A stretch of 37,530 nt of DNA from a virus, in the IMG/VR virus record IMGVR_UViG_3300019758_000015, positions 1-37,530 of that record; one strand, 5' to 3'. Both the position numbers and the translations under genes were made by a program. The notes beneath the pieces were generated by a model. The model did no database searches. It was not told the DNA's origin and saw only the letters and a list, made by a program, of their open reading frames with translations. Positions within the stretch are counted from its first letter, which is position 1; each line of letters starts with the position of its first letter. Positions 12,605 to 37,530 of this stretch are shown here, piece by piece.

Positions 12605-12631
12605 ACTTGTGTTCCTTATTTAATTAGCCAG

Positions 12632-12979: not shown

Positions 12980-12980
12980 A

Positions 12981-20413: not shown

Positions 20414-21339
20414 TGACTAAAGCATTAACCACCAATCATCCGATAACGGCTCAAATACTTGAACAAGTAAAGGGCATTAACATTACGTTGCCTGACGCTG
20501 TTGACGATAAATGGGCTGAAATTGAACAAAAAGAAATAGCCTTAGCAGTTCATATTGCGGAACTGGGTTATCGCTATATGGATTTACGTGAAGCGGTTGG
20601 CCACGGGGAGTTTTTAAAGGCTATTGAGCAACGTGGCATAGCGCAAAAAACGGTACAACGTTACATGCAAATAGCTAACTTTTTCATGGAATCAACAGAA
20701 GCAAATGCGACAGCGATGTCGCATTTGAAACCAACGCAAATTGGTATTCTTGCAAGGCTACCTGATAAAGAAAAACAGGCACTTACTCCTGAACGCATAG
20801 AAGAATATGCGCCAATGTCTACCCGTGCGCTTGAGGCTGAAGTTAAACAACTGCGTTTAAACTTTGCCGAGCAAGATAGTGTAAAGGCTGAAAACGAGCG
20901 CTTAAAGCACCAGTTAAAAGAGTCTCAACGTGATTATGCGAATAAAGTAACGCAATTAAACCATGAGCAATTAAAAAAGAAGCCTGAAACTATTTACGGT
21001 ATTCATGCTGAAGTTGCACATACCCGTGAACGTTCTATGGCTATTGCTGAGCTTTTAACAACCGTAGCGGTTGAAATTAACCAATTAGTGCAACGTTGTA
21101 CTAACTCTGAATTAGCCCCTGAATTAGGCCGTGATTGTGCCTTAGCCATTAATACCTCGCTAAGTGGCCAAATTATGCAAATGGCAAATAGTTTAACTAC
21201 CTTGCACGAAAGTCACAGTAAAACCGTATTAACCACACCTGACAATTTACCTATGTATAGCGCTATTGAAGTAAGTGAAGCATTAAGTAATGCCGAATAT
21301 GCCAAAGGCCAGTACAAAGCAACTATAGGAGCGCTATAG
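20413..21339 (+). CDS. DUF3102-like early protein
   Basis: A 308-residue protein. Residues about 30-110 carry the DUF3102 pattern, AVHIAELGYRYMDLREAVGH followed by FLKAIEQRGIAQKTVQRYMQIANFF, a helix-turn-helix-like domain also found in plasmid and phage partition or regulator proteins. A coiled coil follows (residues about 140-190), and the C-terminal 110 residues are helical. It is directly upstream of the transposase, separated by one base, so the two are co-translated. A role as accessory to transposition or replication control is inferred from position. Confidence 0.65.
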   Translation: MTKALTTNHPITAQILEQVKGINITLPDAVDDKWAEIEQKEIALAVHIAELGYRYMDLREAVGHGEFLKAIEQRGIAQKTVQRYMQIANFFMESTEANATAMSHLKPTQIGILARLPDKEKQALTPERIEEYAPMSTRALEAEVKQLRLNFAEQDSVKAENERLKHQLKESQRDYANKVTQLNHEQLKKKPETIYGIHAEVAHTRERSMAIAELLTTVAVEINQLVQRCTNSELAPELGRDCALAINTSLSGQIMQMANSLTTLHESHSKTVLTTPDNLPMYSAIEVSEALSNAEYAKGQYKATIGAL

Positions 21340-21340
21340 C

Positions 21341-23026
21341 ATGGCTCATAACGCAATTACCGAATACAAAAACTTAGCCTTAAGCACTAATGTTGTTAAC
21401 AGCTGGGAACACGCAACACAAAAACAACAAACCGTTGCTAATGCGCGTAAAACCGTTATTACCGAAGTTGAATCATTACAAGCCACATTACCGTTTTATA
21501 AAGCAGTAAAGCAGTTTAAAGAGAATATTAATTTTCAAGCGGTTAATAACACTGTGTTAATGGCTATTAAAAGCCTTAATAACAAAGTACCCAGTGCTAA
21601 CACCCTTAAAACATGGATAGCTAGCTTTGAAGAAAATGGCTTAGCAGGTTTGCTGCCAAACCATAAAGGCTCAACACGTAAAAGCTATGGTTGGGAGCAT
21701 TTAGCATTAACGCTTTACCATAAACCACAAAAACCAAGCCTGAAAAATGTAGCGTTACAATTACGAGAAGATCACGATTTTGACACAGCAACAGACCATA
21801 ACGTTTGGTATTTTTTTAGCTTATTACCTGCAGAGTTAAGTGATAAGTCTCGTTGGAGAATTGGCACTAAACTATACCGTGATGGTCAGCGTCAATATAA
21901 CCTTAGACACACTGAAAACATGCAGGTTGGTGACATTTATCAAGGTGATGGCCATACATTAGACGTGTACCTAAAGCACCCTAGTACAGGTAAATTATGG
22001 CGCGCTGAGCTAACGGTATTTCAAGACTGGAAAAGCCGCTATATTGTTGGTTGGTATTTATCAAATGCTGAAAGCTCTATTACTACAATGGCAGCACTAA
22101 GCCACGGTTTAGGTACTTATAACCATGTGCCATTAATGCTGTACATAGATAATGGTTGTGGCTTTAAAAGCAAGCTTATGAATGACGATACAGCAGGTTT
22201 TTATGCAAACTTTGGTATGGACGTTATTTTTGCTATTCCTGGTAATGCAAAAGCCAAAGGTAACGTTGAACGTTTCTTCCGAGTAATGGAAGAAGACTTA
22301 AATAAACGTTTTGACACCTACTGCGGCTCAGATATGTCACCTGATATTTCTCGTCATTTTAGCAGCACTAAAATGCATATTATGGCAAAGAAAAATATTC
22401 ATGTGCCTACTCAAGAAGAATGGATTGAAGCGTTTGAAGGTTGGTTAATTAACTACCATAACCGACCACACCCCGAATATAAAAACACAACACCTGCAGC
22501 AATGTGGGCGCAGTTAAATAATACCCCCGTACATGACATGAATTTACTGGTAAAACCGCGCTCAAAAGTAAATGTAAGAAGAGGCTCGTTAATTCATCAG
22601 GGCCGTACTTATCGCTCTACGTATTTACACCAGTTTAATGACCAAGAATTAGTTGCTGAATACGACATGCATAACGATAGCGCTATGCGTATTTTTGACA
22701 CTGACGGTACTTATTTATTAACCGTTGACTTAGCACATAAAAAAGCGGCCATACCCACAAGCCGCTTAGAGCAAGCAAGAGTTAATTCACTTAAATCGTC
22801 AGAAAAACGCTTACAAAATAAGTTAACAGAAAACCGCCTACGTCATGCGCCTATGCATACGTCGCACGTTGAGCAATTAAAAGAAATGGAGCTATTAACG
22901 ACAACAACAGAAGAAGTATTAATTGAACACAGTGAACCCGAAATTAACTTAAATGAAATGATGCAAGATGGCTTGTTTACGAGCAAAGCTGATAACGAAG
23001 ACGAATTAGATTTACTGAATATTTAA
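21341..23026 (+). CDS. A: DDE transposase (MuA-like)
   Basis: A 561-residue transposase that cuts the prophage ends and joins them to target DNA in replicative transposition. The catalytic core is intact: Asp203 in YQGDGHTLDVY, Asp270 in YIDNGCGF and Glu310 in NVERFFR. The 67-residue spacing of the two aspartates equals that of MuA (269/336). Residues about 1-160 hold the helical DNA-binding part (NTLKTWIASFEENGLAGLLP). After the rve core, residues about 400-460 form the beta-barrel domain (RRGSLIHQGRTYRSTYL). The C-terminal tail is acidic and should contact the B ATPase encoded 28 bases downstream. The protein is shorter than MuA (663 residues), as usual in siphoviral relatives. Confidence 0.96.
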   Translation: MAHNAITEYKNLALSTNVVNSWEHATQKQQTVANARKTVITEVESLQATLPFYKAVKQFKENINFQAVNNTVLMAIKSLNNKVPSANTLKTWIASFEENGLAGLLPNHKGSTRKSYGWEHLALTLYHKPQKPSLKNVALQLREDHDFDTATDHNVWYFFSLLPAELSDKSRWRIGTKLYRDGQRQYNLRHTENMQVGDIYQGDGHTLDVYLKHPSTGKLWRAELTVFQDWKSRYIVGWYLSNAESSITTMAALSHGLGTYNHVPLMLYIDNGCGFKSKLMNDDTAGFYANFGMDVIFAIPGNAKAKGNVERFFRVMEEDLNKRFDTYCGSDMSPDISRHFSSTKMHIMAKKNIHVPTQEEWIEAFEGWLINYHNRPHPEYKNTTPAAMWAQLNNTPVHDMNLLVKPRSKVNVRRGSLIHQGRTYRSTYLHQFNDQELVAEYDMHNDSAMRIFDTDGTYLLTVDLAHKKAAIPTSRLEQARVNSLKSSEKRLQNKLTENRLRHAPMHTSHVEQLKEMELLTTTTEEVLIEHSEPEINLNEMMQDGLFTSKADNEDELDLLNI

Positions 23027-23054
23027 CTCAATTAAACAAAAAGGAATACACCTA

Positions 23055-24089
23055 ATGGCTAAAGAACATATTGACTACCCAATTACATTTACTGAGTTTT
23101 ATAGTGAAAAAAATAGAGAAGATGTTCACCGTATTATTGACTGGTTAAACGAAAGCAAAAGCCGTACACAGTCACATTTAGTTAAACAAATATCTTATTC
23201 GGCAGGCTCTGTTAGTACGCTAATTAATGGCGTTCATCCTAAAGACCCTCAACCGGTTATTAATGTAATTATTCCTATTGTTGACGATGTTAGTAAGCCT
23301 GTTGCAGCAGGAGATTTTATACATACTAGCACTTACAATATTGTGCTGTCTGCGTGTAAAAAGGCGAAAGATTCAGCCCGTTTTACGGTAGTAGCTGGCT
23401 CGCCAGGTGTGGGTAAATCGTCGTCGTTACTTGAGTACGCAAAACACGATCCTAACGCTATTTATATTTGTGGTAGTGAAACCACCACTAGCAGTGTAGT
23501 GCTTGATGAATTGATGGAGTCGTTAAACATTAAATCAAGAGCCAGTAACACTAAGCATAGTCGTTTAAAGTTAATTATTAACAAGCTGCAAGGCTCTAAA
23601 CGTTTAATTATTTTAGATGAAGCAGACAAGTGCGCTAAAGATGCATGTGATCCGCTGCGTACTATTTCAGACAAAACAGGCTGTGGCGTGGTGTTAGCAG
23701 GTAATCATCAACTGCGCGATAACATTATTGTAGGGAACAATCGCTACGACTTAATAAGTGACCGTGTGGTGTTTTGGCCTGAAGCCATAAACCATATCAC
23801 GCTTGAAGATTGTAGCTTGTTAATGCGTCCTTATTTTACTGAACAAATGCTAGGTGATGACTTTGATGTACTGGTGAAGTATGCCTACGAACTCACTAAA
23901 GGCAGTGCCCGTAAGTTAGTTGATTCACTTATCCCTAATGCTCTTGATGTGTATAAAAACCAAATTCAACGTAATGCGGACGCAGCGCTTACATGCAATT
24001 GGTTAAGAAACATAGGTAAGCAATTAATGGGCATTCAAAACCCACCGCCATTGCCGCACAAGCCTAGTGCTATAGCCGTGCCAGCGTAA
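23055..24089 (+). CDS. B: transposition target-selection ATPase (MuB-like)
   Basis: A 344-residue AAA+ ATPase. Residues about 20-60 are an N-terminal helix-turn-helix (SHLVKQISYSAGSVSTLING) as in MuB. Walker A is GSPGVGKS (115-122) and Walker B RLIILDEAD (183-191); the sensor-type segment VVLAGNHQLRD follows. MuB forms ATP-dependent filaments on target DNA, stimulates the transposase and gives target immunity. The gene has an AAGGA ribosome binding site and follows A closely. A Pro-rich tail ends the protein. Confidence 0.95.
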   Translation: MAKEHIDYPITFTEFYSEKNREDVHRIIDWLNESKSRTQSHLVKQISYSAGSVSTLINGVHPKDPQPVINVIIPIVDDVSKPVAAGDFIHTSTYNIVLSACKKAKDSARFTVVAGSPGVGKSSSLLEYAKHDPNAIYICGSETTTSSVVLDELMESLNIKSRASNTKHSRLKLIINKLQGSKRLIILDEADKCAKDACDPLRTISDKTGCGVVLAGNHQLRDNIIVGNNRYDLISDRVVFWPEAINHITLEDCSLLMRPYFTEQMLGDDFDVLVKYAYELTKGSARKLVDSLIPNALDVYKNQIQRNADAALTCNWLRNIGKQLMGIQNPPPLPHKPSAIAVPA

Positions 24090-24135
24090 TTAATTTTTAA
24101 CTCTATTTTAACTAGTAACAACTAAAAAGGTAAAC

Positions 24136-24840
24136 ATGATGACAGAAACAAATAAAAACGAAATGAATGCACCAAAAGGCTTTGTTTTTAATGCCCAAGG
24201 TGACTTGATTCGGATCAGCAATTTAACACCATTACAGCAAGAAGAAGACGCGTTATGTAAAAGCTTATTTCCTATGGCGAAAGACCTTAATGAGCAAATG
24301 GCTAAATTTAAGTATCAGTCTATGAATATGGTTGATCAAGTGATTGAGCGATGCGTAAAAGAGCACAATATTATTAAGCTGAAAAAAATTAAAGGTACCG
24401 TTACTTTCCTTAGCATTAACGGGTTATTTAAAGTTGTACGCAGCATTGATGATCGCATTGAAATTAACAGTAACATTGAAGCAGCTAGACAGTTATTTGA
24501 CCAATACCGTGATGTGATTAAACGCGATGCTAGTGGTGATGCTCAGCAATGGATAAATACAAGCTTTGAAACGAAGAACGGCAAGATGAGTACGGGCAAG
24601 TTAATTGAAATTATGAATAAGGAAATAGATCACCCTATTTATCGTAAAGGCGTAGAAGCATTACGTAAGTCGTTATTTGTAGCAGGTACTAAAGCCTATT
24701 TACGCTTTTATTATAGAGACGCTTCAGATGATGAATGGTGCTCTTTGCCTTTACAATTTTCAAGTATTGACGCTATTAACCCAGAAGAAGATCACGTTGA
24801 TGAAGAGCAAGAAAAAGAAGTTGCACAAGCGTCAGCGTAG
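24136..24840 (+). CDS. DUF3164 protein
   Basis: A 234-residue protein with the DUF3164 signature: KGFVFNAQGDLIRISNLTPL at the start, then an all-helical middle and the conserved LRFYYRDASDDEWCSLPLQF near the end. DUF3164 proteins follow B in many Mu-like phages; their function is unknown, and replication or modification of host processes has been suggested only from position. An AAAGG ribosome binding site precedes the double ATG. The acidic tail (EEDHVDEEQEKEV) is low complexity. A small overlapping frame beyond its end was rejected. Confidence 0.86.
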   Translation: MMTETNKNEMNAPKGFVFNAQGDLIRISNLTPLQQEEDALCKSLFPMAKDLNEQMAKFKYQSMNMVDQVIERCVKEHNIIKLKKIKGTVTFLSINGLFKVVRSIDDRIEINSNIEAARQLFDQYRDVIKRDASGDAQQWINTSFETKNGKMSTGKLIEIMNKEIDHPIYRKGVEALRKSLFVAGTKAYLRFYYRDASDDEWCSLPLQFSSIDAINPEEDHVDEEQEKEVAQASA

Positions 24841-24908
24841 TTGGCAATGGCAATTAAAAAAAAGTATTGAAACTGTCGAGTTAGACAAAAGTAAACCTAT
24901 TCCAAACC

Positions 24909-24941
24909 GCCTTTAACGCAACTTAAATATACGTTAAAGGC
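24909..24941 (+). terminator. 10-bp hairpin upstream of the HU gene
   Basis: GCCTTTAACG (24909-24918) pairs perfectly with CGTTAAAGGC (24932-24941) around a 13-base loop, followed by ATTTT. It sits between DUF3164 and HU and could attenuate transcription into HU or terminate part of the early messenger. Confidence 0.55.
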
Positions 24942-24974
24942 ATTTTAAACCAAAACCTGAAGGGGTAAGTAAAA

Positions 24975-25250
24975 ATGAATAAATCTCAATTAATTGAAAA
25001 AATCGCATTAGCCGCTGATATTTCTAAAGCTGATGCTGGCCGTGCATTAGATGCTTTTATTGAAGTAACTACTGAAGAGTTAAAACAAGGTGGCGATGTT
25101 GCTTTAGTGGGCTTTGGTACATTCAGTGTTAGTGCACGAGCCGCACGTACTGGTCGTAATCCTCAAACGGGTGAAGCATTACAAATTGCTGCCGCTAAGG
25201 TACCTAAATTTAAAGCAGGTAAAGGCTTAAAAGATGCAGTAAACGTTTAG
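24975..25250 (+). CDS. HU-family DNA-bending protein
   Basis: A 91-residue protein that is full-length [22 protein letters not shown], the dimer core [20 protein letters not shown], the arm sequence [20 protein letters not shown], and the tail [11 protein letters not shown]. The Pro in the arm tip needed for DNA intercalation is present. HU assists assembly of Mu transposition complexes, so a phage-borne copy next to A and B is meaningful. It has a strong AGGGG ribosome binding site and is framed by hairpins on both sides, suggesting separate control. Confidence 0.97.
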
Positions 25251-25268
25251 TTTTACTGGTAACTAACA

Positions 25269-25290
25269 AGCCGCTTAGTTGCGGCTTTTT
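25269..25290 (+). terminator. intrinsic terminator after HU
   Basis: AGCCGC and GCGGCT pair around a six-base loop and run directly into TTTTT on the plus strand. This is a good rho-independent terminator inside the early region, so genes beyond it need read-through or another promoter. Confidence 0.8.
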
Positions 25291-25326
25291 GGGCAGTAAC
25301 ATAACGATAAAGATAGGTGATAAAAA

Positions 25327-25956
25327 ATGAAACATTATTCGGAATTTGGTTTGACGCCACTTATGGCGGTAGTTGATATAGAAACATTAGATACGGCTAT
25401 AACTGCGGTAATAGCTTCTGTTGGTTGCGTAGTAGTAAACGTATTCACGGGCCAGGTAATTAGTGAGTTTTACGAACGCTGTGAAATTGTTCATCAATCA
25501 ACAACACACGGTAGAACTAAGTCTCAAAGCACCGTTGACTGGTGGAGTAAGCAAGCAGTAGATTGCATGCTTGCTTATCTTGAGGTTTTTGATAAGGGGC
25601 TTGAAAGAGATTCAATCTACAACGTTTTACCACGCTTTAATGATTTCTTAGTAAAGTCATTTGATGGTGAACGTGTGCAACTTATGGGTAATGGGCCTGA
25701 ATTTGATAACGCAAAAATAGAACATGCTATGCAGCAATTCGATATAGAACCAGCTTGGGATCATGGAACTAATCAAAGCTTAAGAACTGCTGTTTGGATG
25801 GGGCGCATGTTGGCAGGTATAGACCCTAAATATGCCTTTGAATTAACAGAGGATAAAGTTAAGCACCATGCATTACATGACGCTTGCCATGAAGCTCAAT
25901 ATCTATGTGCCATTTTTCAAGCATTTATTCCAGTAATACCAGGAGAGGAAAAATGA
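25327..25956 (+). CDS. DEDDh 3'-5' exonuclease (DUF5051-like)
   Basis: A 209-residue exonuclease. The metal-binding residues appear in order: Asp and Glu in VVDIETL (about residues 16-19), Asp in GPEFDNAKIE (about 121) and the HxxxxD-type end HHALHDACHEAQYL (about 180-190). The family (exoribonuclease Rv2179c-like) degrades RNA or short DNA 3' ends and is common in Mu-like prophages and T4-like dexA neighbours. Its stop overlaps the next start (ATGA). The substrate in the phage is unknown. Confidence 0.85.
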   Translation: MKHYSEFGLTPLMAVVDIETLDTAITAVIASVGCVVVNVFTGQVISEFYERCEIVHQSTTHGRTKSQSTVDWWSKQAVDCMLAYLEVFDKGLERDSIYNVLPRFNDFLVKSFDGERVQLMGNGPEFDNAKIEHAMQQFDIEPAWDHGTNQSLRTAVWMGRMLAGIDPKYAFELTEDKVKHHALHDACHEAQYLCAIFQAFIPVIPGEEK

Positions 25957-26174
25957 CAGCAAAAGTTGAAATAACTTGTGATGGCAATGGTTGCACAGCA
26001 TCTATTTCTAATGAAGCTAATGGTAGTACTGATGATGTTAGCTCATTAATGAAATGGCATAAATGGCGTAATGACCCAACAACTGATGAATATCAATATT
26101 GTTCATGTTGTTGGCCTGCGGTGAAAGCTGAATATGAAGAAATGCATAAAAATGGCGAGTTATCAACGTTATGA
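25953..26174 (+). CDS. small zinc-finger-like protein
   Basis: A 73-residue protein starting MTAKVEITCDGNGCTASISN; the ATG at 25953 has an excellent GGAGAGG site and overlaps the exonuclease stop. It carries CDGNGC near the start and CSCCW near the end, two cysteine clusters that could bind one zinc ion. A longer frame starting at 25905 lies inside the exonuclease and is not needed. Function unknown; coupled to another Cys-pair protein downstream. Confidence 0.68.
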   Translation: MTAKVEITCDGNGCTASISNEANGSTDDVSSLMKWHKWRNDPTTDEYQYCSCCWPAVKAEYEEMHKNGELSTL

Positions 26175-26482
26175 CAACTAAAACGCAAGAAATAAACGCA
26201 GGGCAAACTAAAGGTGAGAGAGGTTGTACCCCTGTGATTTATAGCCCTTTATGGCCTGTAAAGATACTTAAAATTCGTTTGAACTCTGGTAAGGCAATAA
26301 TCAGCAGTTTAGGCCGAGAATTAAAGTGTTCTAAATGTAAAGAATATTGGCCTGCAGACACGCAGTTTTATCATTCTAAACCGGGTGTAAAAAGTGGATT
26401 ACAAGATTGGTGTAAAGCATGTTATGGCACTTGGGATAGAGAACGTAGAGAACTTAGAAAACAAAAAAGGAAAGCGCAATGA
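26171..26482 (+). CDS. zinc-ribbon protein
   Basis: A 103-residue protein with a classical treble-clef/zinc-ribbon segment: CSKCKEYWPADTQFYHSKPG then DWCKACYGTWDRERRELRKQ, that is CxxC and CxxC spaced by about 24 residues, followed by a basic tail. Such phage proteins resemble HNH-endonuclease adaptors without the catalytic His. It overlaps both neighbours by four bases, so it belongs to the exonuclease-to-GemA coupled set. DNA binding is inferred from the basic tail. Confidence 0.7.
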   Translation: MTTKTQEINAGQTKGERGCTPVIYSPLWPVKILKIRLNSGKAIISSLGRELKCSKCKEYWPADTQFYHSKPGVKSGLQDWCKACYGTWDRERRELRKQKRKAQ

Positions 26483-26871
26483 AAATTAGACGATTATTAA
26501 AAGCAGCTCAAACGAACCTTGACATGGATCAACAATCTTATGTTGCCACTCTTGAACATTTCACGGGTAAATCAAGCAGTACGTTACTTAGTTATGATGA
26601 ATGTAAAACCGTGTTAGCGCATTTTGAAACGTTAGGTTATCAAGCACCTGTCAACCCACGGCTTAAGCAAATAAAGCGTATTCAGTACCTTTGGATCCGT
26701 TTACAAGAAGAAAAAAAATTAAATAAGCCTGGCATGAATGCAATGCACAGTTTTTGTAATAACTTTACTAAAGACATTTCAGTATATAAAGCTGAGCCTA
26801 GCCAATTAAGCGCGTGTATTGAAGCGTTAAAAGCTTGGTGTAAACGCGAAGAGGTTACTTTTAATGAGTGA
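26479..26871 (+). CDS. gemA: GemA-like regulatory protein (Mu gp16, DUF1018)
   Basis: A 130-residue protein with the GemA/gp16 pattern: LLKAAQTNLDMDQQSYVATL near the start, a central RLKQIKRIQYLWIRLQEEKK and a C-terminal CIEALKAWCKREE helix. In Mu, GemA affects host gene expression and DNA supercoiling and is expressed with Mor. The gene overlaps the zinc-ribbon gene by four bases and the mor gene by eight, reproducing the gemA-mor pair of Mu. Intact length for the family. Confidence 0.85.
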   Translation: MKIRRLLKAAQTNLDMDQQSYVATLEHFTGKSSSTLLSYDECKTVLAHFETLGYQAPVNPRLKQIKRIQYLWIRLQEEKKLNKPGMNAMHSFCNNFTKDISVYKAEPSQLSACIEALKAWCKREEVTFNE

Positions 26872-27283
26872 TATGTCAACAAGTAACCCTGTTGATTTAC
26901 GTGCATTGCCCACACGTACTAGCATGCTTGCTAAGCGTATTGGTTTACAGCTTACTTATGAGTTTTTAAATGCTTTTTGGTGTGAAACTTTGTATATACC
27001 GCCTAATTTAAAACATTCAAATTTAGATAAGCGTGTGGGAATGACTGTTGCTTTAGCACTTATTGAGTTATGGCCTAATCAACAGTTTACACCTCCTAAG
27101 CCTGATAAGTTATTGCAAAAATGGCGTGATCATGAAATTGGCTCAAGTGACTTGTCAACTAAAGAACTATGTAAAAAATATAACATTACTCGCCAACGGT
27201 TAAGCCAAATACGCTTAGCCTTGAAATCACCTACTGAGCGCAAACAACAGTTTGAAAATTTAACGCTTGACCTACCGATATAA
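26864..27283 (+). CDS. mor: Mor/C-family transcription activator
   Basis: A 139-residue protein. Residues about 85-130 form the DNA-binding helix-turn-helix (STKELCKKYNITRQRLSQIR), and the N-terminal half contains the dimerisation helices and the strand typical of Mor. Mor activates the Mu middle promoter by binding just upstream of a -10 box. Only one Mor/C-type gene is visible in this window, so it may act directly on late promoters. The motif repeated at 14291 and 27323 is the best candidate site, the second copy lying 40 bases beyond this gene. Confidence 0.87.
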   Translation: MSDMSTSNPVDLRALPTRTSMLAKRIGLQLTYEFLNAFWCETLYIPPNLKHSNLDKRVGMTVALALIELWPNQQFTPPKPDKLLQKWRDHEIGSSDLSTKELCKKYNITRQRLSQIRLALKSPTERKQQFENLTLDLPI

Positions 27284-27286
27284 AAT

Positions 27287-27313
27287 GAGCGAAGCTAATT
27301 AAGCACTTCGCTC
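27287..27313 (+). terminator. hairpin after mor
   Basis: GAGCGAAG and CTTCGCTC pair perfectly (8 bp) around an 11-base loop directly after the mor stop. No U-run follows on plus, so it is a weak or factor-dependent end of the early messenger. Confidence 0.45.
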
Positions 27314-27322
27314 TACTCCCCT

Positions 27323-27342
27323 GAAAACATTTGACGTATAAC
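27323..27342 (+). promoter_or_regulatory. candidate late-activator binding motif, copy 2
   Basis: GAAAACATTTGACGTATAAC, 19/20 identical to 14291-14310, lies 70 bases before the lysis operon. A weak -10-like CATACT starts 18 bases after the motif, the same distance as TACAGT after copy 1. No good -10 lies 17 bases from the TTGACG, so an activator-dependent promoter is more likely than a plain sigma-70 one. Confidence 0.62.
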
Positions 27343-27412
27343 CCTTCTATTTAAAAATTTCATACTGCACTTATGGCATTTTGCCGTGTCTTTTTTCTCA
27401 AGGATGTGTTGT

Positions 27413-27898
27413 ATGAAAAAATTGTATTATGGCCTTAAATCGAAAGAACAAGCTTTTGCCTTAGCTAAAGAAGTTAGCGATGGCTTAGGCAGTAAAAATG
27501 ATACCGAATCAGAATTAATGTTATTAGGCACTGCTTGTGCTGAAACAAAGTTAGGTACATACCCTGATAACACGCCAAAAACATTAGGTGTTGGCCTTTG
27601 TCAGCATGACCAAATAGGCTTAGACGATATTAAACAAGAAGGTGAACAACGCCATTTTGATATTATTAAAAAGCTGTGGGGCTACGATATTTTAGCGATT
27701 AAATTAGCTGACTTAGCTGAAGACCCTAAGTTATCTTTTATTTGTTGTCGCCTATCCTATAAACGTGTTCCTGCCTCTATCCCCAAAACAACTCAAGGTA
27801 AAGCTGCCTATTGGAAGCAGTACTATAACACCGAAGCAGGCAAAGGCACTGAACAACATTATATTGATGCCGTTGATGAATGTTTAGGAGCTAAGTAA
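27413..27898 (+). CDS. putative endolysin (lysozyme-like)
   Basis: A 161-residue protein; I choose the ATG at 27413 because AGGA lies eight bases upstream, over the longer GTG frame at 27386. Residues about 37-65 read MLLGTACAETKLGTYPDNTP and GVGLCQHDQI, a pattern of phage muramidase/transglycosylase-like folds in which the Glu of AETKLG is a candidate catalytic acid. It is the first late gene and is followed at once by a holin, the standard lysis position. No signal peptide is visible, so it should depend on the holin for release. The exact glycosidase family is uncertain. Confidence 0.62.
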   Translation: MKKLYYGLKSKEQAFALAKEVSDGLGSKNDTESELMLLGTACAETKLGTYPDNTPKTLGVGLCQHDQIGLDDIKQEGEQRHFDIIKKLWGYDILAIKLADLAEDPKLSFICCRLSYKRVPASIPKTTQGKAAYWKQYYNTEAGKGTEQHYIDAVDECLGAK

Positions 27899-28455
27899 TG
27901 GATATTTTAAACGTACTAAAAGATGTTGGTGTGGGGTTGATATCATCAACTCCGTTAGGCCAAGCCGCATTACCTATTATTAATGCTTTTTTACCGAAAG
28001 ATAAGCAGCTTGGTAGCAGTTCAACGGGGGAAGATGCACAACAGGCTATTGATAGTTTACCCCCTGAAGCAAAGCAACAACTTCTCCTGGCAAAGATTAA
28101 TTTACAGGTTGAAGAAGAGCGCGGCCAAACGAATCGTTATGAGGCCATGTGCAAGGCTGACGGACAAGAAACACGGGCTAAACTCGTTAATAAAGCGATG
28201 AATGCTTTAATTTTGTTGTCATTTTTATTTGTAGGTGCTGTGGCTTATGTGTATAGCACTAAAGGCGCTGAATATGCTTTTAGTTATGAAATGGCTGCGG
28301 TGTTTACAACCGTGTCAGCTGTTTTTGCTTATGTGGTTAGATCATACATGGGCGATTTAAAAACCGAAACACAATCAAGACATGCGGTTGCAAGTGGAAC
28401 TCCCCCTAAACCTACTGGTATTGCTGGTATTATTAGCGCAATACAGGGGAAGTAA
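27898..28455 (+). CDS. holin of the GTA 3TM type
   Basis: A 185-residue protein. The segment SLPPEAKQQLLLAKINLQVE followed by two membrane helices (about 100-120, ALILLSFLFVGAVAYVY, and about 130-150, MAAVFTTVSAVFAYVV), with a mildly hydrophobic N-terminus, matches the three-helix holins described from gene transfer agents and Mu-like prophages. It would open the inner membrane to release the endolysin encoded just upstream; the two genes overlap by one base (TAATG). Confidence 0.78.
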   Translation: MDILNVLKDVGVGLISSTPLGQAALPIINAFLPKDKQLGSSSTGEDAQQAIDSLPPEAKQQLLLAKINLQVEEERGQTNRYEAMCKADGQETRAKLVNKAMNALILLSFLFVGAVAYVYSTKGAEYAFSYEMAAVFTTVSAVFAYVVRSYMGDLKTETQSRHAVASGTPPKPTGIAGIISAIQGK

Positions 28456-28740
28456 ATGACTGATAAAAAACAACCTGTAATGAGCAGTGAAACAGCCCTT
28501 ATTTTGCATGAATTAGGAAAAATAACTGGGCAGCTTGATTCATTAGAAAAACATACCTGTGAATGGCGAGATACACAGTCTAAAACGAACGATGCCATAT
28601 TTAAAAAGCTTGATGATCATGATGAGCGTATTCGCCATAATGAAACGAGTATAGCGAAAAAAGCAGGTGTTATTTCTGCTGCTACAGGTGTAGGTGTAGC
28701 TTTATTGGCGGAAGCTTTAAAACGTGGACTGTTAAGCTAA
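28456..28740 (+). CDS. small lysis-module protein, coiled coil plus C-terminal helix
   Basis: A 94-residue protein with a charged coiled-coil region (ELGKITGQLDSLEKHTCEWR to IRHNETSIAKK) and a C-terminal membrane-type segment (AGVISAATGVGVALLAEALK). The architecture resembles haemolysin XhlA-like or DUF2730-like proteins found next to phage holins, which may anchor or modulate lysis. It starts directly at the holin stop and overlaps the next start by one base. The precise family is not recognised. Confidence 0.6.
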   Translation: MTDKKQPVMSSETALILHELGKITGQLDSLEKHTCEWRDTQSKTNDAIFKKLDDHDERIRHNETSIAKKAGVISAATGVGVALLAEALKRGLLS

Positions 28741-29237
28741 TGGCTAGAAACCAAGATAAACATGATGCCATTCGCCGCAGCTTTGTGATAGATCGCGTTA
28801 ACTTAAAAGCCGCGGCTGAATTACACAAAGTTGCACCAGCAACAGCAGCCCGTTGGAAAGTTAAAGCGAAAGAAAAAGGAGATTGTTGGGATAAAGCTCG
28901 CAGTGCTTCTCGTCTTGCTCAAGGTGGTATTGGGGATTTGTCTATTCAAGTATTAGAAGACTTTACCCTTCAATACAGTGCCTTGATGGAGGTATTAAAA
29001 CATTCAGAAATTGAGCCTTTAGAAAAGGCGAGTATTTTAACTAAGCTTGCCGACAGTTACGTGAAAATAACGAAAGCGGCTGGTGGTGGTGATAACCAAA
29101 TAGCCCGTTTGAGTGTAGCAATGGAAACGTTGAAATTATTCTCTGGCTTTATTGCTGAACGTTCTCCTCATATGTTAGAGCAATTTGTGTTGTTACTCGA
29201 ACAATTCGCCCCTGAACTTAGCAAGCAGTATAGCTAA
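28740..29237 (+). CDS. DUF1804 protein (Mu gp27-like, small-terminase position)
   Basis: A 165-residue protein. Residues about 5-50 (HDAIRRSFVIDRVNLKAAAE, then APATAARWKVKAKEKGDCWD) are a helix-turn-helix typical of DUF1804/gp27, followed by helices. These proteins sit immediately before the large terminase in Mu-like phages and are thought to act as small terminase or packaging recognition subunit. The stop is one base before the terminase start. Confidence 0.85.
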   Translation: MARNQDKHDAIRRSFVIDRVNLKAAAELHKVAPATAARWKVKAKEKGDCWDKARSASRLAQGGIGDLSIQVLEDFTLQYSALMEVLKHSEIEPLEKASILTKLADSYVKITKAAGGGDNQIARLSVAMETLKLFSGFIAERSPHMLEQFVLLLEQFAPELSKQYS

Positions 29238-29238
29238 C

Positions 29239-30987
29239 ATGGCTGATTTAAAAGAGAAAGAATTTCTTGATGAAGTGGCTCAGCTTACAGCGAAGCTACG
29301 CCAAGAAATAGACGCTAAAAAGCAAAACCTTGATACTTCACCTGATGCAATAAGAAAACGCCGTAAAAGAGTGTTAAGTGGCGATTTTGAGTGCTTTGTT
29401 TATACCTATTTCCCACATCATATGTGGCTTGAAAAAGGTCAAAAATGTAGCGAATTTCAAGGACGTTTTTTTAAACGTTTTCCACAAGCATTATTTAGTG
29501 ATGACCCTGTTAGAGATTGGTATGCAGCGCCGCGTGGTGAAGGTAAATCAACGCTGTTAACAAAACTAGGGCCTATCTTTGTTACTGCCTTAGATTTGCT
29601 TCAACGTCCTGCTATACGTGAAGAGTTGGATATAAAGAAAATCCCTGACATTCACATTAACTACATGATTGTTTTTGGTGCTGAAACACGTATGCCTGCC
29701 AAGTTACTTGAAGTGGTTAAAACCGAGTTAATTAACAACCCACAGTTGCAGTTAGACTTTCCTGAAATTTGTGGTGGTACTGGGCATTGGAAAATTGGCG
29801 AGTTTACGACCAGTAATGGCGTGACTATTGAAAGCCGAGGTATTAACCAAGCCGTTCGAGGAACCTTCAGCGGCGCTAATAGACCACAGTTATTATTAAG
29901 TGATGACATTATTACTGATAGTGAAGCTAAATCAGCTACTGAACGTGATGGTCGGTGGGACACGTTAGAAGCTGGTATTGATTATTTAGGGCCACCTGAT
30001 GGTAGCGTTAAATTTATGGCTGTGAATACGGTTTTACACCATGACGACCCAATTAGCCGAGCTAAAAACAGCCCTGGCCATACGGTATTTCATTTTAAAG
30101 CGTTGGTTGAAATGCCGCACAATATGGATTTATGGCACCACTGTGAAGAGTTGATGCGTAATGACGATAAACGCTACAAACTTGAAATGGCTGCCCGTGA
30201 TGGTTTTGCTAAATTAAAAGACTTTCCTAGTTATAAGTTTTGGATCAAAAACAAAAAAGCCATGAGTAAAGGTGCTGTTGTTAGTTGGTCGTGTGTACGT
30301 GATTTGTACACAATAATGGCGCTTAGAGTGAAGAACTTAAAAGCGTTCAATAAAGAAATGCAAGGCATACCTCGTAGTGATGACGAATTGCTGTTTGATA
30401 CATTTGAATTTTGGGTGAATAAATTACCAGAATGGAAAACGTATGGTGCTTGTGACCCAAGTATGGGCAAAGGTGAAAGCGCTGATCCTAGTGCGCTAAT
30501 TATTGGCCATTATCATCCACTAACGAAAAAAGGTCATATTGAACATTGTGTACGTAAACGTCGGCAACCTTCAGTACTTTTGGCTGACATGATTAAGCTT
30601 CAAAATGAGTTTAACCCGATTACTTGGGGCTTTGAAAACAACAATGCCTTTGAGTGGATGCGTAAATCTTTTGCCAACATGGCATTAGATCAAAGAGTCA
30701 TTATGCCAACCACAGGTTGGACAGCCATTAAGTCTCAGCAAGAATATATTGAAAGCTTAGAGCCGTTTATTACGGATATAGATCCTAATATTTTATTCCA
30801 TGCCCGGTGTCATGCGTTAATTGAAGAAATGGGCACGTACCCTGATAAAGAAAGCCATCATCATTACGATGCGTTAGTAGCATTGCATTTGTGGTGGGTA
30901 ACGGCTGTTGCACGCAGTGGTGGTATACCATTAGCACGTTCAGCTAACACTAGCGGCGGTGTTAATACCGCAGGATTTGGTCGATGA
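29239..30987 (+). CDS. terminase large subunit
   Basis: A 582-residue packaging motor; the ATG at 29239 is chosen because the longer frame (29185) starts inside DUF1804 with TTG. Walker A-like AAPRGEGKST is at residues 97-106 and Walker B PQLLLSDDI at about 216-224. The nuclease half contains Asp406 in GACDPSMGKGESADPSALI and the C-terminal HHYDALVALHLWW acidic motif. The enzyme cuts and pumps DNA into the prohead, with the portal encoded by the next, four-base-overlapping gene. Mu-type terminases package headful from the phage left end. Confidence 0.95.
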   Translation: MADLKEKEFLDEVAQLTAKLRQEIDAKKQNLDTSPDAIRKRRKRVLSGDFECFVYTYFPHHMWLEKGQKCSEFQGRFFKRFPQALFSDDPVRDWYAAPRGEGKSTLLTKLGPIFVTALDLLQRPAIREELDIKKIPDIHINYMIVFGAETRMPAKLLEVVKTELINNPQLQLDFPEICGGTGHWKIGEFTTSNGVTIESRGINQAVRGTFSGANRPQLLLSDDIITDSEAKSATERDGRWDTLEAGIDYLGPPDGSVKFMAVNTVLHHDDPISRAKNSPGHTVFHFKALVEMPHNMDLWHHCEELMRNDDKRYKLEMAARDGFAKLKDFPSYKFWIKNKKAMSKGAVVSWSCVRDLYTIMALRVKNLKAFNKEMQGIPRSDDELLFDTFEFWVNKLPEWKTYGACDPSMGKGESADPSALIIGHYHPLTKKGHIEHCVRKRRQPSVLLADMIKLQNEFNPITWGFENNNAFEWMRKSFANMALDQRVIMPTTGWTAIKSQQEYIESLEPFITDIDPNILFHARCHALIEEMGTYPDKESHHHYDALVALHLWWVTAVARSGGIPLARSANTSGGVNTAGFGR

Positions 30988-32432
30988 AAGCTCATAAAAA
31001 AGAAATACTTGATAACAGCATTATTGAACGTTTGCATGATGATCAGCTGGTTGGAATGATGCACGAATTACCTGACACTGATGAGCTTTTACGTAAAGCA
31101 GGTGTTGATCAGGAAGTTTACCGCGAAATTCTACAAGACCCTCATGTAATGGGGGAAGTACGACAAATTTATAGTGCGCTATTAAGTTTTAAATATGAAT
31201 TACAAGCAGGTGATGATTCAGCTTCAGCAAACCAAGCGTTAGAGCTATGCCAGAACATACTTAAAAAAAGACCACATCCAACCATGCGTTGGCCTGATCT
31301 ATTCTGGTCTATTGGTAAAGCGCCACTTACAGGACGTAGAGTACACGCTATTAATTGGAAGGAAGAAAACGGTAAATTAATACCAGGACAAATTCACGAT
31401 ATTGAATCGAGAAAGTACGGCTTCAATTATCAAGGCGAATTACTGATTAAAAGCATGGAAATACCATTAGGTGAAATTGCGCCTGATTTTCGATTTTTAG
31501 TTACTCGTCATATGTCTGATGCAACAAACCCTTACGGGCTCGCTATTTTAAGTTGTTGCTTTTGGAGTTGGATGTTTAAAAATGGCGGTCTAAAATTCTT
31601 TGTTCGTTTTTGTGAACGCTTTGGACAACCATTCCCTATTGGAAAGTACCCTCAAGGCACATTAGAAAGCGATATTGACAAGTTGGTCACGTCGTTACAA
31701 GGATTGGCTGAAGATGCCGTTGCTGCTATTCCTGATGATAGTAGTATTGATGTATTAGAAGTTAAAACCAGTGGTCAATTACCGCAAGAGCGCTTGGTTT
31801 TATTAATGAACCGTGAAATAAGTAAAGCGCTAACCAGTCAAACTGCTGCCAGTGAATTAACGGGGGATGGTGGTAGCCGAGCCGCGTCAGAAACTCACCA
31901 AGGGAGAACCGATCAAAATGCTAAAGCTGATAGAGGTTTACTTGAAGATACTGCAAACCAACTTTTTGAGTTTGTGACCATAATTAATTTTGGTGAAAAT
32001 GTAGCTTCGCCAGTAATGAAATTTATTGATAAAAAGCAAGTGAGTAAAGAAGATGTTGAGGTTGTGAAAGAGTCTGCATCTATAGTGCCGCTTGTAAAAA
32101 CAGACGTTTATAAACGTTTGAACTGGTCAGAGCCTGGTGATGGTGATGATGTTATTTTTCTTGGTACCACAGAAAAAGAAGATCCTGAAAAAGGCGGAAA
32201 AGTTGAATTTTCAAAAGCCCCAATTCAAGAATGGGATGATTATCAGCAATCTATTAGTGACATTGTAGATCAAGTAAAACAAGCGGTTGCAAAAGGTGAA
32301 ACCCTTGAGGACGCGTTAGATGCGATTATTGCATTAGTGCCAGAGTTAGATAAAACCGTTTTGAACGATTTAATTAGCCAGGAACTTGAAATTGAATTTG
32401 GCGCTGGCATGTTGGATGCTAATAATGATTAG
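30984..32432 (+). CDS. portal protein (DUF935, Mu gp29-like)
   Basis: A 482-residue protein matching DUF935 portals: MRWPDLFWSIGKAPLTGRRV near residue 100, FLVTRHMSDATNPYGLAIL around 175, FVRFCERFGQPFPIGKYPQG around 210, and LTGDGGSRAASETHQGRTDQ near 300. The dodecameric portal forms the DNA gate of the head. Start overlaps the terminase stop (ATGA). The C-terminal 100 residues are acidic. Confidence 0.94.
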   Translation: MKAHKKEILDNSIIERLHDDQLVGMMHELPDTDELLRKAGVDQEVYREILQDPHVMGEVRQIYSALLSFKYELQAGDDSASANQALELCQNILKKRPHPTMRWPDLFWSIGKAPLTGRRVHAINWKEENGKLIPGQIHDIESRKYGFNYQGELLIKSMEIPLGEIAPDFRFLVTRHMSDATNPYGLAILSCCFWSWMFKNGGLKFFVRFCERFGQPFPIGKYPQGTLESDIDKLVTSLQGLAEDAVAAIPDDSSIDVLEVKTSGQLPQERLVLLMNREISKALTSQTAASELTGDGGSRAASETHQGRTDQNAKADRGLLEDTANQLFEFVTIINFGENVASPVMKFIDKKQVSKEDVEVVKESASIVPLVKTDVYKRLNWSEPGDGDDVIFLGTTEKEDPEKGGKVEFSKAPIQEWDDYQQSISDIVDQVKQAVAKGETLEDALDAIIALVPELDKTVLNDLISQELEIEFGAGMLDANND

Positions 32433-32473
32433 GCTCATTAAACCTATAGTCATAGCTTTAGCTAATATCATAC

Positions 32474-33739
32474 ATGGTGGTGTTTATGCCTAATGCTACT
32501 GGGGTTAGCTATGGCTCATTACCTTACAATGAAGCTATTGATTACTTCAAACAAAAGCTAATTATCCCTAGTGAGAAGTGGGATGATTTAGTGGGTCCCA
32601 TTCACGCTAAAGGCTTTACCGTTGCAGGAGCTACAAAACTAGAATTACTTCAAGACTTCTACAAAACCATCGGCGAGTATATTGCTAATGGTGATAGTTT
32701 AGGTAACTTTCTAAAAGACTTTGATGCTATTGCGGCAAAACATGGTTGGTCATATAAAGGTGATCGCAGTTGGCGTGCAAAAACAATATTAAATACAAAT
32801 AAACGTTCTGCCTATATGGCTGGACGTTGGCAGCAATTGCAACGTGTTAAAACTCGTCGACCTTATTTAATCTATATGACGGTTGATGATAGCCGTGTTC
32901 GTCATGATCACAAAAAATGGCACTTAAAGGTTTATCACATTGATGATCCATTTTGGAAAACCCATTATCCACCTAACGGTTGGATGTGCCGTTGTTATGT
33001 TCGTTCAGCTTCTCAAAAAGATTTAGATCGCTTAGGTTTGAAAGTAGGCCAAAGTAAGAATATCGACCCTATTGAAATAGTAGATCCTGAAACGGGCCTT
33101 ATCACTAAAAAAATGCCCGGCATTGATGTTGGTTGGGATTATAACGTGGGTAAAGCATGGCTTGCACCTGATGTAATTCTAGGTCAACAATTAATGGAGT
33201 TACCAACAAAATTACGTAAACCTGCATTAGATTGGTTTGATAATTCAATATTTGATACGCCATATAAACAGTTAGTCAACAGTACAACAATGCAGTTAGC
33301 TAAAGGTGAAAAAGTTACCCAAGGTTTAGCGCAAACAGTAGGTTATTTAAGTGAAGAGATCATTAGTTATTTGTCTAACAACGCTAAGTTGCCAATTGGC
33401 GCAGCAATGGTTGTTAGAGACGGTGATATTGCCCACTGGTTAAGAGATAAAAAAGTTAACCGTGGGGCGGCAGTTCCACTTTCAATAGCATCTTCTTTAC
33501 CTAAATTACTGCGTGATCCTGATGTGGTTCTATTTGATGGCAAAGACGTGATTTTTGCTAATCAATTGAAAGATGGCCGCTATGCCAAGTTCGTGCTTAA
33601 ACTCAATTTTAAAGGCCGTTTAAGGCACGATAAATCACGGTTTAAAGAGTATTTAAACACCTTTATATCTGCAGGTATTATTGATAAAGCGAATTTGTTA
33701 GAACCGAGATACGAAGTGATAACAGGAAAGGTAAATTAA
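32474..33739 (+). CDS. head morphogenesis protein (Mu gpF-like) with C-terminal nuclease-like domain
   Basis: A 421-residue protein. Residues about 130-180 carry the Mu gpF signature: TVDDSRVRHDHKKWHLKVYH then HYPPNGWMCRCYVRS. Residues about 310-421 look like a phage Barnase-EndoU-ColicinE5/D-RelE (PBECR) domain (FDGKDVIFANQLKDGRYAKF, then basic strands). An ATG at 32486 is preceded by GGTGGT and is a possible true start, four residues shorter. It is the last gene of the rightward late operon; in Mu the protease gene would follow, but here the next gene in that position is cargo on the other strand. Confidence 0.88.
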   Translation: MVVFMPNATGVSYGSLPYNEAIDYFKQKLIIPSEKWDDLVGPIHAKGFTVAGATKLELLQDFYKTIGEYIANGDSLGNFLKDFDAIAAKHGWSYKGDRSWRAKTILNTNKRSAYMAGRWQQLQRVKTRRPYLIYMTVDDSRVRHDHKKWHLKVYHIDDPFWKTHYPPNGWMCRCYVRSASQKDLDRLGLKVGQSKNIDPIEIVDPETGLITKKMPGIDVGWDYNVGKAWLAPDVILGQQLMELPTKLRKPALDWFDNSIFDTPYKQLVNSTTMQLAKGEKVTQGLAQTVGYLSEEIISYLSNNAKLPIGAAMVVRDGDIAHWLRDKKVNRGAAVPLSIASSLPKLLRDPDVVLFDGKDVIFANQLKDGRYAKFVLKLNFKGRLRHDKSRFKEYLNTFISAGIIDKANLLEPRYEVITGKVN

Positions 33740-34844: not shown

Positions 34845-34984
34845 GCTTTTCCCTTATAGCCTATAATTTGTATGAAACAATACATTTAAACTTTCTTTTA
34901 TTCAATTGTTTATGAAATAGCTTAAAAAAAGAAATTAAATGTGCGTTTTTACATAAAACTTAACCACTAGCTTATTTTAGAAAG

Positions 34985-35022
34985 TATATCTCAAATTTTT
35001 TGAAGTTAACTTCCGTTTTTCG
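34985..35022 (-). promoter_or_regulatory. shared cargo upstream element, copy 1 (contains dyad)
   Basis: These 38 bases are about 82% identical to 37093-37130. They contain the perfect 12-bp palindrome GAAGTTAACTTC (35002-35013) and, on the minus strand, a TATACT -10-like hexamer just beyond. The element lies about 140 bases upstream of the membrane-protein gene at 34844. Confidence 0.6.
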
Positions 35023-35089
35023 AACAAAGAAGACATTAGCTTTTAAAGACAATTAGATACTTCGGATTAGGTTTTGTCTCGATAATACC

Positions 35090-35157
35090 CACTTAAGCGG
35101 ACAGAGATAGTGTAGTGAAGCGCAACATAGTCAATTATTTATGTTCCGTTTAAAGTG
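35090..35157. repeat. 68-bp segment bounded by imperfect inverted repeats
   Basis: CACTTAAGCGGAC (35090-35102) faces TGTTCCGTTTAAAGTG (35142-35157), whose complement is CACTTTAAACGGAACA. It could be a miniature or solo insertion end, or a terminator for the ApeA-like gene, whose stop is 22 bases away. No ORF lies inside. Confidence 0.35.
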
Positions 35158-35179
35158 CTTATAGTTGGATTTTTCTAGA

Positions 35180-36988
35180 CTACAAAGCCACTGTGCTTTC
35201 AAGCAAAGAAGGAAGCCATGTATTTTTGAATTCATCAAAGACTCTCAATCTGTCTTTTACTTGTCCATGTGAGAATATATATTCAGGACAATTCAAAATA
35301 AAAGCTCCTGAAAAAAGGTTAAGTGACTCATCTTTATATTTAAGGTAAGAAATGTTCAAATATGCGAAATTTTTAACTTTTATAGTATCTACAAAAGCTA
35401 TAAGTTCTTCTTCAACAGATCGAGTTGTTTTATCTCGATTAAAGAGCCTAGCACCAACATGCTCGGTCGCTTTATCGTTCACTCTAAAAGTATCACTTGA
35501 TTTTACATAATCTAAAATTAAACATTTAGAGTTATATCTTTTAGCTTTAAAAAAATTTGTTTTATTTGTCTTAAGAAATAAGTATTTTCCCGAAGCGATA
35601 TCAAGTGAAACTCTATTAATTTGTGCCTGCTGTGTAATTGGATCCATCCAGTTGCCTAAAAAACCTATGAAATCTGAATGCGTGAAACCCATATCAATAA
35701 AAGCCCAATAACGGAGTAGCAAAACAATTTTATTGGTAACTGTGACTTCGTATGTAATATTTCCTTCATTTTGAATTTTAGGCTCATCGCCATGGGCTAC
35801 AGTATTTCTAAGTTGCTTCAAGTGTCGAAAATCATCATCTTTGAATCCCAGCACTTCAATTATATTTGGGTTAGTTCTAGACACTTTCAGATCGAATTTT
35901 TTATTAAATGAGGGAATAGATGTGTTTTGAATATTCTCATTAACCTGAATGCACATGCTGTCAATAACAGCATTGAATTTCTCTTTATCTTCATCGCCTA
36001 GACTGCATTGTAATTTCACTTCTTCCAATGAAGTTCGTGCTACTCGTCGGTATTTCTTAAACTGGCTAAGTGATAGATGTTTTTCTTCATTCTTGGCGAA
36101 GATACTTACGTATCGATCGACCAAACTAACGTATGCTAATATTCTATATTCCCAAAACCCTTCATATGAAAGCATACCAGAGATTCTAGCCCAAACATTT
36201 TTGTATTTTTCATTGTTACTACTGAAGTACCCTTGTAATAATTCTTGCCACTTATTTTCTTTGAATAAAAATGAGGAAGGAACAAAGCACTTTCTCAGCA
36301 AGATATCTTCACTTGTATCTCTTGTAGCGTTTACAAAATAGATTGACTGTTTAGTGCTTTTTGTCGTTGCATCCAGTACATACTCGACACCAATCGAATG
36401 ACCAAGTAGTAATGTAAAGAACGTCCTTATATCGCTAATTATTGCAATCAATTCAGTAATAGACCAAGAGGAGTTCTTAGATTCGATTCTCAGAAGTGAG
36501 TATTGATTAAGTTGGTAATTATTATCTTTAACATGCTTAGTATCACACCAATGTTCATTGCTTAAAGAAATCTTTTTACCACCTAAGTCGACTTCAGCAT
36601 CAAAAGTTCTAGTGTCTATTTTTCTAATGATTTCACTATTAGTAAACTCAAACCTTCCATGGCTATCCATCCATTGTGATAGTCCTTGAAGAAGAAGGTA
36701 AATTCTTTTAAATTTAACTCGTCTTTGCTCTCCCTTAATAAAGACATTTGGAAAAATGGTATTATCAAATATTTCACACTCTAACAATTGGTACTGATAC
36801 TTTTTAGACTTACAAATAAACACTTTTTGTTTTGCATATCTAGATATATCTGTATCAAAATCAACTTGAGGGGCTTGATTTTTTTTAACTGATAGAGTTC
36901 CACTACCAACAGTAGTATCAGATGTAGTAAAAACTTCAACTTTAACTGAAAACTCATCTAAAAAACCAACATATTTATCAAAAATCAT
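35180..36988 (-). CDS. apeA: ApeA-like HEPN anti-phage protein
   Basis: A 602-residue soluble protein. Residues about 5-290 resemble the ApeA N-terminal domain (beta-rich, with LLLQGLSQWMDSHGRFEF and LIAIISDIRTFFTLLLGHSI). The HEPN domain follows, with the catalytic RNase motif RNTVAH at residues 394-399 (R-x4-H) in LKQLRNTVAHGDEP. About 200 residues of extra C-terminal domain follow (NYLK-type strands, LFSGAFILNCPEYIF). ApeA-family proteins cleave RNA on infection and abort phage growth. Base composition is AT-richer than the phage body, as expected of cargo. The family call is from pattern, not a search. Confidence 0.68.
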   Translation of the reverse strand: MIFDKYVGFLDEFSVKVEVFTTSDTTVGSGTLSVKKNQAPQVDFDTDISRYAKQKVFICKSKKYQYQLLECEIFDNTIFPNVFIKGEQRRVKFKRIYLLLQGLSQWMDSHGRFEFTNSEIIRKIDTRTFDAEVDLGGKKISLSNEHWCDTKHVKDNNYQLNQYSLLRIESKNSSWSITELIAIISDIRTFFTLLLGHSIGVEYVLDATTKSTKQSIYFVNATRDTSEDILLRKCFVPSSFLFKENKWQELLQGYFSSNNEKYKNVWARISGMLSYEGFWEYRILAYVSLVDRYVSIFAKNEEKHLSLSQFKKYRRVARTSLEEVKLQCSLGDEDKEKFNAVIDSMCIQVNENIQNTSIPSFNKKFDLKVSRTNPNIIEVLGFKDDDFRHLKQLRNTVAHGDEPKIQNEGNITYEVTVTNKIVLLLRYWAFIDMGFTHSDFIGFLGNWMDPITQQAQINRVSLDIASGKYLFLKTNKTNFFKAKRYNSKCLILDYVKSSDTFRVNDKATEHVGARLFNRDKTTRSVEEELIAFVDTIKVKNFAYLNISYLKYKDESLNLFSGAFILNCPEYIFSHGQVKDRLRVFDEFKNTWLPSLLESTVAL

Positions 36989-37092
36989 AAATCGTTTCTA
37001 ACGCCTCAACGTGAATAAATAAAAAAACAGAGCAACATAACGCTTATTATGGAGATTTTTCAATAATAAGACACATATAATTTATTAGACAA

Positions 37093-37130
37093 TATATCGC
37101 AAGTATTTTGAAGATAACTTCAGCTTTGCG
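37093..37130 (-). promoter_or_regulatory. shared cargo upstream element, copy 2
   Basis: About 82% identical over 38 bases to 34985-35022, with GAAGATAACTTC in place of the perfect dyad and a TATATT -10-like hexamer at the corresponding place. It lies about 105 bases upstream of the ApeA-like start, so both cargo genes appear to have related promoters. Confidence 0.6.
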
Positions 37131-37190
37131 CACTTAGTTGTCAGTTGTGGTTATGTTCTTTTTTAAATATATAATAATGACTAATCCACT

Positions 37191-37302
37191 TCAGTGGTAA
37201 AAAACATTTCACCTCTTACCATTAAACACCCATTTCTTACTGGTAAAAACTCACTTAACTATCACTTAATCTCAATTAAGCTCATTTATTCTCAATAATG
37301 AT
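37191..37302. repeat. boxes and 10-bp phased repeats, candidate prophage end region
   Basis: Three related boxes occur: AGTGGTAAAAAA near 37193, CTCTTACCATTAA at 37213 and TTACTGGTAAAAAC at 37237. They are followed by five direct repeats one helical turn apart: CACTTAACTAT, CACTTAATCT, CAATTAAGCT, CATTTATTCT, CAATAATGAT (37252-37302). No gene is present between 36989 and 37365. Clusters of transposase-binding boxes next to non-phage DNA are what the end of a Mu-like prophage looks like. Confidence 0.5.
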
Positions 37303-37365
37303 TCTATCGTTAAACATTAATTAAATTCGACGAAATGTATACCCAACAAGGATTTGAGTCAATTT

Positions 37366-37530
37366 TTATCCCCTCTGTGAATTATCAGAAATGATTACCC
37401 CCCTACATCTAGTGCATAAACTTTTTACTCTTTCTATATCCCCTATGAAGTTGTTCCATGCCCTTGAACACTGTTCAACAATATCCTCATAACCTTGAAA
37501 GCAGCGGTTAGCCAATTCATTTTGTCTTAG
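37366..37530 (-). mobile_element. C-terminal end of an IS630-family transposase (partial)
   Basis: Fifty-four residues are read on minus from the window edge to a stop at 37366: NELANRCFQGYEDIVEQCSR, then AWNNFIGDIERVKSLCTRCR. The ending NR-x-F-x-x-Y-[ED]-x-[IL]-V-x-x-x-x-x-AWN-x-x-I followed by I/V-K-S-L/I-C is typical of IS630-type DDE transposases. The catalytic part lies beyond the window. It suggests that phage DNA has ended before this point. Confidence 0.62.

Follow-up and report, generated by a model that had tools for sequence, protein, structure and literature searches.

We identified, close to the right end of a Mu-like temperate phage, a gene for an HEPN-domain protein which is probably a self-contained HEPN-RNase abortive-infection gene that spreads as an integron cassette and is held as a moron by temperate phages. 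The window analyzed here is the whole 37,530-nucleotide stretch of viral DNA in IMG/VR record IMGVR_UViG_3300019758_000015, and the features discussed below are located in Table 1. Searching about 85,000 species genomes with a pattern-based method recovered two further copies of the gene, in Moritella sp. JT01 and Pseudocolwellia sp. AS88, both 88-90% identical to the window gene, and a search of viral contigs recovered the Moritella prophage copy again. The Moritella copy (L002) lies within a P2-like prophage, between a replication gene and a zinc-finger gene which, from their translations and general knowledge, we take to be of the gpA and ogr types. In Pseudocolwellia (L003) the gene has ordinary chromosomal genes on either side. 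Relatives of the protein were very rare in the searches made, so that the family argument rests on distant homology.

Table 1. Positions of the HEPN gene, its flanking sites and the neighbouring phage features in the window.
Feature	Position	Strand	Basis
ApeA-like HEPN gene, 602 aa, ATG start	35180-36988	minus	ORF list, Pfam and purifying selection
ApeA_NTD1 match, residues 77-202	36383-36760	minus	Pfam, N-terminal 235 aa alone
HEPN_Apea domain, residues 331-437	35678-35998	minus	Pfam
Catalytic R-x4-H motif RNTVAH, residues 394-399	35792-35809	minus	Translation and alignment
C-terminal extension after HEPN, residues 440-602	35183-35671	minus	No counterpart in 462-496-aa ApeA proteins
Integron-type cassette, first base 37041 = G of G^TTATGTT	35088-37041	minus	Shared start in all three copies
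Degenerate attC with pairing inner arms CACTTTAAACGGA / TCCGCTTAAGTG and decayed R boxes	35082-35163	minus	Sequence comparison
attI-like core directly before cassette	37042-37067	minus	3 mismatches to Pseudocolwellia integron site
49-nt direct repeat, 3' side of HEPN gene	34977-35025	minus	80% identical to other copy
49-nt direct repeat, 5' side of HEPN gene	37085-37133	minus	80% identical to other copy
Mu gene F-like protein, last late gene before slot	32474-33739	plus	Phage_Mu_F 71.6 bits (Pfam); PHROG 220
Second minus-strand slot gene, 281 aa	33999-34844	minus	ORF list; profile searches
Right end of phage, GATTACCCCCCTACA	37393-37407	plus	L042 homology ends after GATTACCCCCCTACA

By its profile matches, the window gene encodes a divergent member of the ApeA family. 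The reading frame, its length and the position of RNTVAH are exactly as an earlier note on this DNA had claimed, and the protein scores 31.3 bits with HEPN_Apea (PF18739), above the curated cut-off of 24.4, which argues that the R-x4-H motif is not a chance occurrence. The ApeA-type N-terminal region proposed in the same note is borne out by ApeA_NTD1 (PF18862), which scored 27.9 bits (cut-off 25.5) when the N-terminal 235 amino acids were scanned alone and 29.1 bits in the whole Pseudocolwellia orthologue. It went unreported in a scan of the whole window protein, presumably through HMMER's filters. The profile comparison with the ApeA_NTD and HEPN families that the note had proposed as a check therefore clears both curated cut-offs, and the protein combines the two features by which Pfam defines the ApeA family, HEPN_Apea with R-x4-H and an upstream ApeA_NTD1. 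The RNTVAH sequence is identical in the two close homologues from Moritella and Pseudocolwellia, R394 and H399 are invariant in both distant relatives as well, and an alignment of five relatives has R and H of the motif unchanged throughout. The gene also stands in AT-rich DNA, as had been noted, with a GC content of 0.32 compared to approximately 0.40 for the phage.

The PADLOC Cas13-ApeA and PDC-S58 models left the window protein unmatched up to E = 1, and both orthologues were likewise unmatched by the ApeA-type models, whereas the same models matched other ApeA proteins strongly (L073, L074) or weakly (L075), which places the window protein and its orthologues on a divergent ApeA branch. 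Searches of the HEPN protein against NCBIfam and PHROGs gave no match, and no PDB chain matched it. The earlier observation that roughly 200 residues follow the HEPN motif also holds, with 203 residues beyond H399, of which about 165 lie beyond the end of the HEPN profile match. The other ApeA proteins found here (L073-L075) are 462-496 amino acids long and end shortly after HEPN. The extension aligns weakly with an open reading frame in a genome of Pseudocolwellia's family (22% identity, residues 188-552), and a plasmid protein of Robbsia andropogonis aligns weakly with residues 272-479 of the window protein (29% identity), an alignment that reaches residue 563 when the Pseudocolwellia orthologue is used. 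Because it is partly aligned in these two distant relatives, the extension appears to be a trait of a small subfamily and is not unique. The suggestion of a new ApeA subtype thus stands in so far as the protein is divergent, missed by PADLOC and extended at its C-terminus, and is weakened by the recurrence of that extension. Pfam returned no informative family for the extension, and AlphaFold run with the three close homologues gave no usable model (pLDDT 34), since too few diverse sequences are available for so rare a protein.

Comparison of the window gene with its two homologues gave overall dN/dS values of 0.41 and 0.37. For residues 236-440, which comprise HEPN and the preceding stretch, the values for the same two pairs were 0.22 and 0.13, compared to 0.47 and 0.46 for the N-terminal part and 0.54 and 0.56 for the C-terminal part. 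The contrast between HEPN and the C-terminal part was supported in one pair (Fisher p = 0.005) and was not significant in the other (p = 0.08). These estimates indicate that the protein is constrained, most strongly around its predicted catalytic centre. That the C-terminal extension is a sensor, as the earlier note had ventured, is a guess to which its fast evolution lends mild support.

The gene is carried by the phage itself. The window encodes a Mu-type transposase (21341-23026), a terminase (29185-30987) and a portal protein (30984-32432), as assigned with Pfam and PHROGs, and the gene F-like protein of the related prophage L042 is 77% identical to that of the window. Homology between L042 and the window extends to just past gene F and resumes over window positions 37216-37407. 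The slot between these two blocks holds a different minus-strand gene in L042 (215 aa, at L042 8188-8835), and by inspection it has no evident gene in the more distant prophages L043-L045, which have similar ...TACA ends. The point at which the L042 similarity stops, together with these ...TACA ends, places the right end of the phage at 37407; the left end lies outside the window. Both minus-strand genes of the window slot are therefore inside the phage, and the HEPN gene lies 419 bp from the right end, in agreement with the location near a putative phage end given in the earlier note. Its carriage by the phage, also proposed there, is supported by the phage homology on both sides of the gene and by the variability of the slot among four related prophages. 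An origin in host DNA beyond the phage end is ruled out by the resumption of phage homology on the far side. The HEPN gene has the hallmarks of a moron, being inside the phage ends, in a slot that varies among relatives and opposite in direction to the late genes.

Several other features of this phage were observed. The second minus-strand slot gene is possibly another moron; its product has a hydrophobic N-terminal part followed by a coiled-coil-like part, matches PHROG 17460 weakly and is 36% identical to a protein encoded on a plasmid of Vibrio diabolicus, where a Fic gene and a phage-like gene are nearby. The 215-aa slot protein of L042 likewise combines a hydrophobic N-terminal part with one that is coiled-coil-like. 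A 286-aa gene in AT-rich DNA (17176-18036, minus strand), which adjoins an S24/HTH repressor gene (18103-18774), is a further possible moron. The gene order is unusual for a Mu-like phage: the genes for the protease, scaffold and major head protein and later genes run leftwards (1-14252, minus strand), and the block from transposase to gene F runs rightwards (19961-33739, plus strand), ending next to the right end.

Comparison of the three copies suggests how the gene came to be shared among such different contexts. The DNA common to all three starts at GTTATGTTGCTCT, where attC recombination crosses over, and the window and Pseudocolwellia copies share about 90 bp more ahead of this point. 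The Moritella prophage has a row of four genes here, with the HEPN gene in last place, and an attC-like site stands behind every one of them (L002 6207-6268, about 7101-7200, 7851-7951 and about 9831-9930). For three of the sites, identity to the first-cassette attC of a genuine Pseudocolwellia integron that has an integrase is 83, 75 and 71%. The Moritella copy is thus an attC-bounded gene in an array, that is, an integron gene cassette. The three other cassettes (L002 5404-7856) code for proteins of 284 and 213 aa and, between these, for a trypsin-like protein that PADLOC models match weakly; all three could also be defence genes. In the window, the 3' attC has kept its paired L arms and the 5' crossover boundary is preserved, although the R boxes have decayed and the site may no longer be competent for recombination. 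From these comparisons the HEPN gene of the window looks like an integron-derived cassette, an origin absent from the earlier note. A home-made attC scan was set aside, as it produced chance matches in shuffled sequences and missed sites.

The flank ahead of the cassette resembles an attI site. Directly before the cassette, 23 of the 26 bases of the window core agree with the stretch of the Pseudocolwellia integron that runs up to its first-cassette crossover and is hence attI by position, with 0 such matches expected by chance; in an ungapped comparison, the Pseudocolwellia HEPN copy has the core with 5 mismatches. The 26-bp core ATTACTGAGAAGTCTCCATAATAAGC, which in L077 (10627) occupies the attI position of an integron, recurs in further genomes of this family with 0-3 mismatches and no integrase nearby, at L060 1301, L054 1568 and L057 1534. 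A match to the attI core in viral contig L080, an unrelated phage without integron features, was dismissed as chance. Core-related sequences with a neighbouring 49-nt repeat were found in 32 of 297 genomes of Pseudocolwellia's family; those inspected are intergenic and several have no integrase nearby. They may be relic (solo) attI sites, or members of a family of interspersed repeats to which attI also belongs. We had considered the 49-nt repeats as the phage's own transposase sites, and dropped this idea because related repeats occupy intergenic sites in chromosomes.

These repeats, which lie on both sides of the HEPN gene, allow another reading, in which the window holds no integron cassette, the gene moves with the interspersed intergenic repeat, and the likeness to attI is part of that repeat. 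The occurrence of the core in some of the intergenic repeats, with no integrase nearby, would suit this reading. We nevertheless regard it as unlikely, because the Moritella copy is flanked by attC sites and lacks such a repeat, the homology common to the three copies still starts at the crossover base, and the core occupies the attI position of a real integron. It is similarly improbable, in our estimation, that the gene is silent cargo, an intact and unexpressed cassette carried in the phage by chance. Promoter prediction at the HEPN gene found none above chance and the attC R boxes are decayed, as such cargo might be expected to be, but the reading frame is intact in three contexts, dN/dS is well below 1 and lowest around the catalytic centre, and the gene has been kept in a slot which in related prophages is empty or holds something else.

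Integron cassettes often carry toxin-antitoxin pairs (PMC9892861) and HEPN domains are also known as toxins of such systems (PMC7641770), so the gene could instead encode a stabilising or addiction toxin for a cassette array or prophage, with no anti-phage role. This too has a low probability in our view: in all three copies the cassette contains a single long open reading frame that leaves no space on its strand for a partner gene, and the ApeA_NTD1 region and long C-terminal part are unlike small HEPN toxins.

The ApeA family, the prophage HEPN RNase Tha and anti-phage integron cassettes all point to abortive infection, by an HEPN RNase that a phage triggers, as the most likely function. ApeA has the Pfam domains ApeA_NTD1 and HEPN_Apea (Anantharaman 2013; PMC3710099) and is mentioned as a defence system in PMC7699616. 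The window protein resembles it in being encoded by a single gene with both domains in the same order and above cut-off, and with R-x4-H, and differs in escaping the PADLOC models, in its C-terminal extension and in being an integron cassette in phages. Tha is a prophage-encoded HEPN RNase of Staphylococcus aureus phages that acts by abortive infection (PMC11087260). Our working model shares with it a prophage gene, a single HEPN RNase with R-x4-H and abortive infection; Tha itself has 301 amino acids, no recognisable N-terminal domain, its HEPN at the C-terminus and different hosts. A tblastn search of phage records, many of S. aureus phages among them, gave no significant match.

Cassettes with anti-phage activity are known from chromosomal and mobile integrons (reviewed in PMC12409362). 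The gene described here would likewise be a single-gene defence in an attC-bounded cassette, although it is carried by temperate phages and not in a host array, and 602 amino acids is large for a cassette gene. Integron parts have been reported in phages (Qi 2023; PMC9892861), including integrase-less attC arrays like that in the Moritella prophage, and no HEPN or abortive-infection cassette turned up when the text of that paper was searched. The 'Integron cassette HEPN' family (PDB 3jrt) also places an HEPN domain in an integron cassette of gammaproteobacteria, but it is listed separately from ApeA in PMC3710099 and no PDB chain matches the window protein.

In the mechanism that we propose, the beta-rich ApeA_NTD1 region, the fast-evolving C-terminal extension or both would recognise a component of an incoming phage, and recognition would activate a dimeric HEPN RNase through R394 and H399. 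The activated enzyme would cleave cellular and phage RNA, so that growth of the infected cell would stop before progeny are released. Spreading as an integron cassette, the gene would have been acquired by the Mu-like temperate phage of the window. There it occupies the moron slot that separates gene F from the right end, preceded by what would be the remnant of an attI-like site. It reads in the opposite direction to the late genes, and through it a lysogen would become immune to other phages. We infer this protection from family, context and selection; dimerisation, RNase activity, the phage trigger and the direction of transfer are likewise predicted.

Chromosomal and mobile integrons are already known to store anti-phage genes, and prophages to carry defence. 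The present locus connects these two observations, since one and the same defence-type cassette, bordered by attC and attI-like sequences, is found in a chromosome and in two temperate phages that are unrelated to each other. This suggests a concrete way in which phages could draw on the integron store. It is conceivable, though we put this forward only tentatively, that the temperate phages of marine bacteria of the Colwellia/Moritella type have moron slots with attI-like or attC sites as landing places, into which host integrases load and swap anti-phage cassettes. If this is true, the phage moron slot would be a mobile annex of the host's chromosomal integron. As a divergent ApeA branch, in which the HEPN core is conserved and the N- and C-terminal parts on either side of it evolve fast, the protein also offers a case in which phage sensing by ApeA may be studied.
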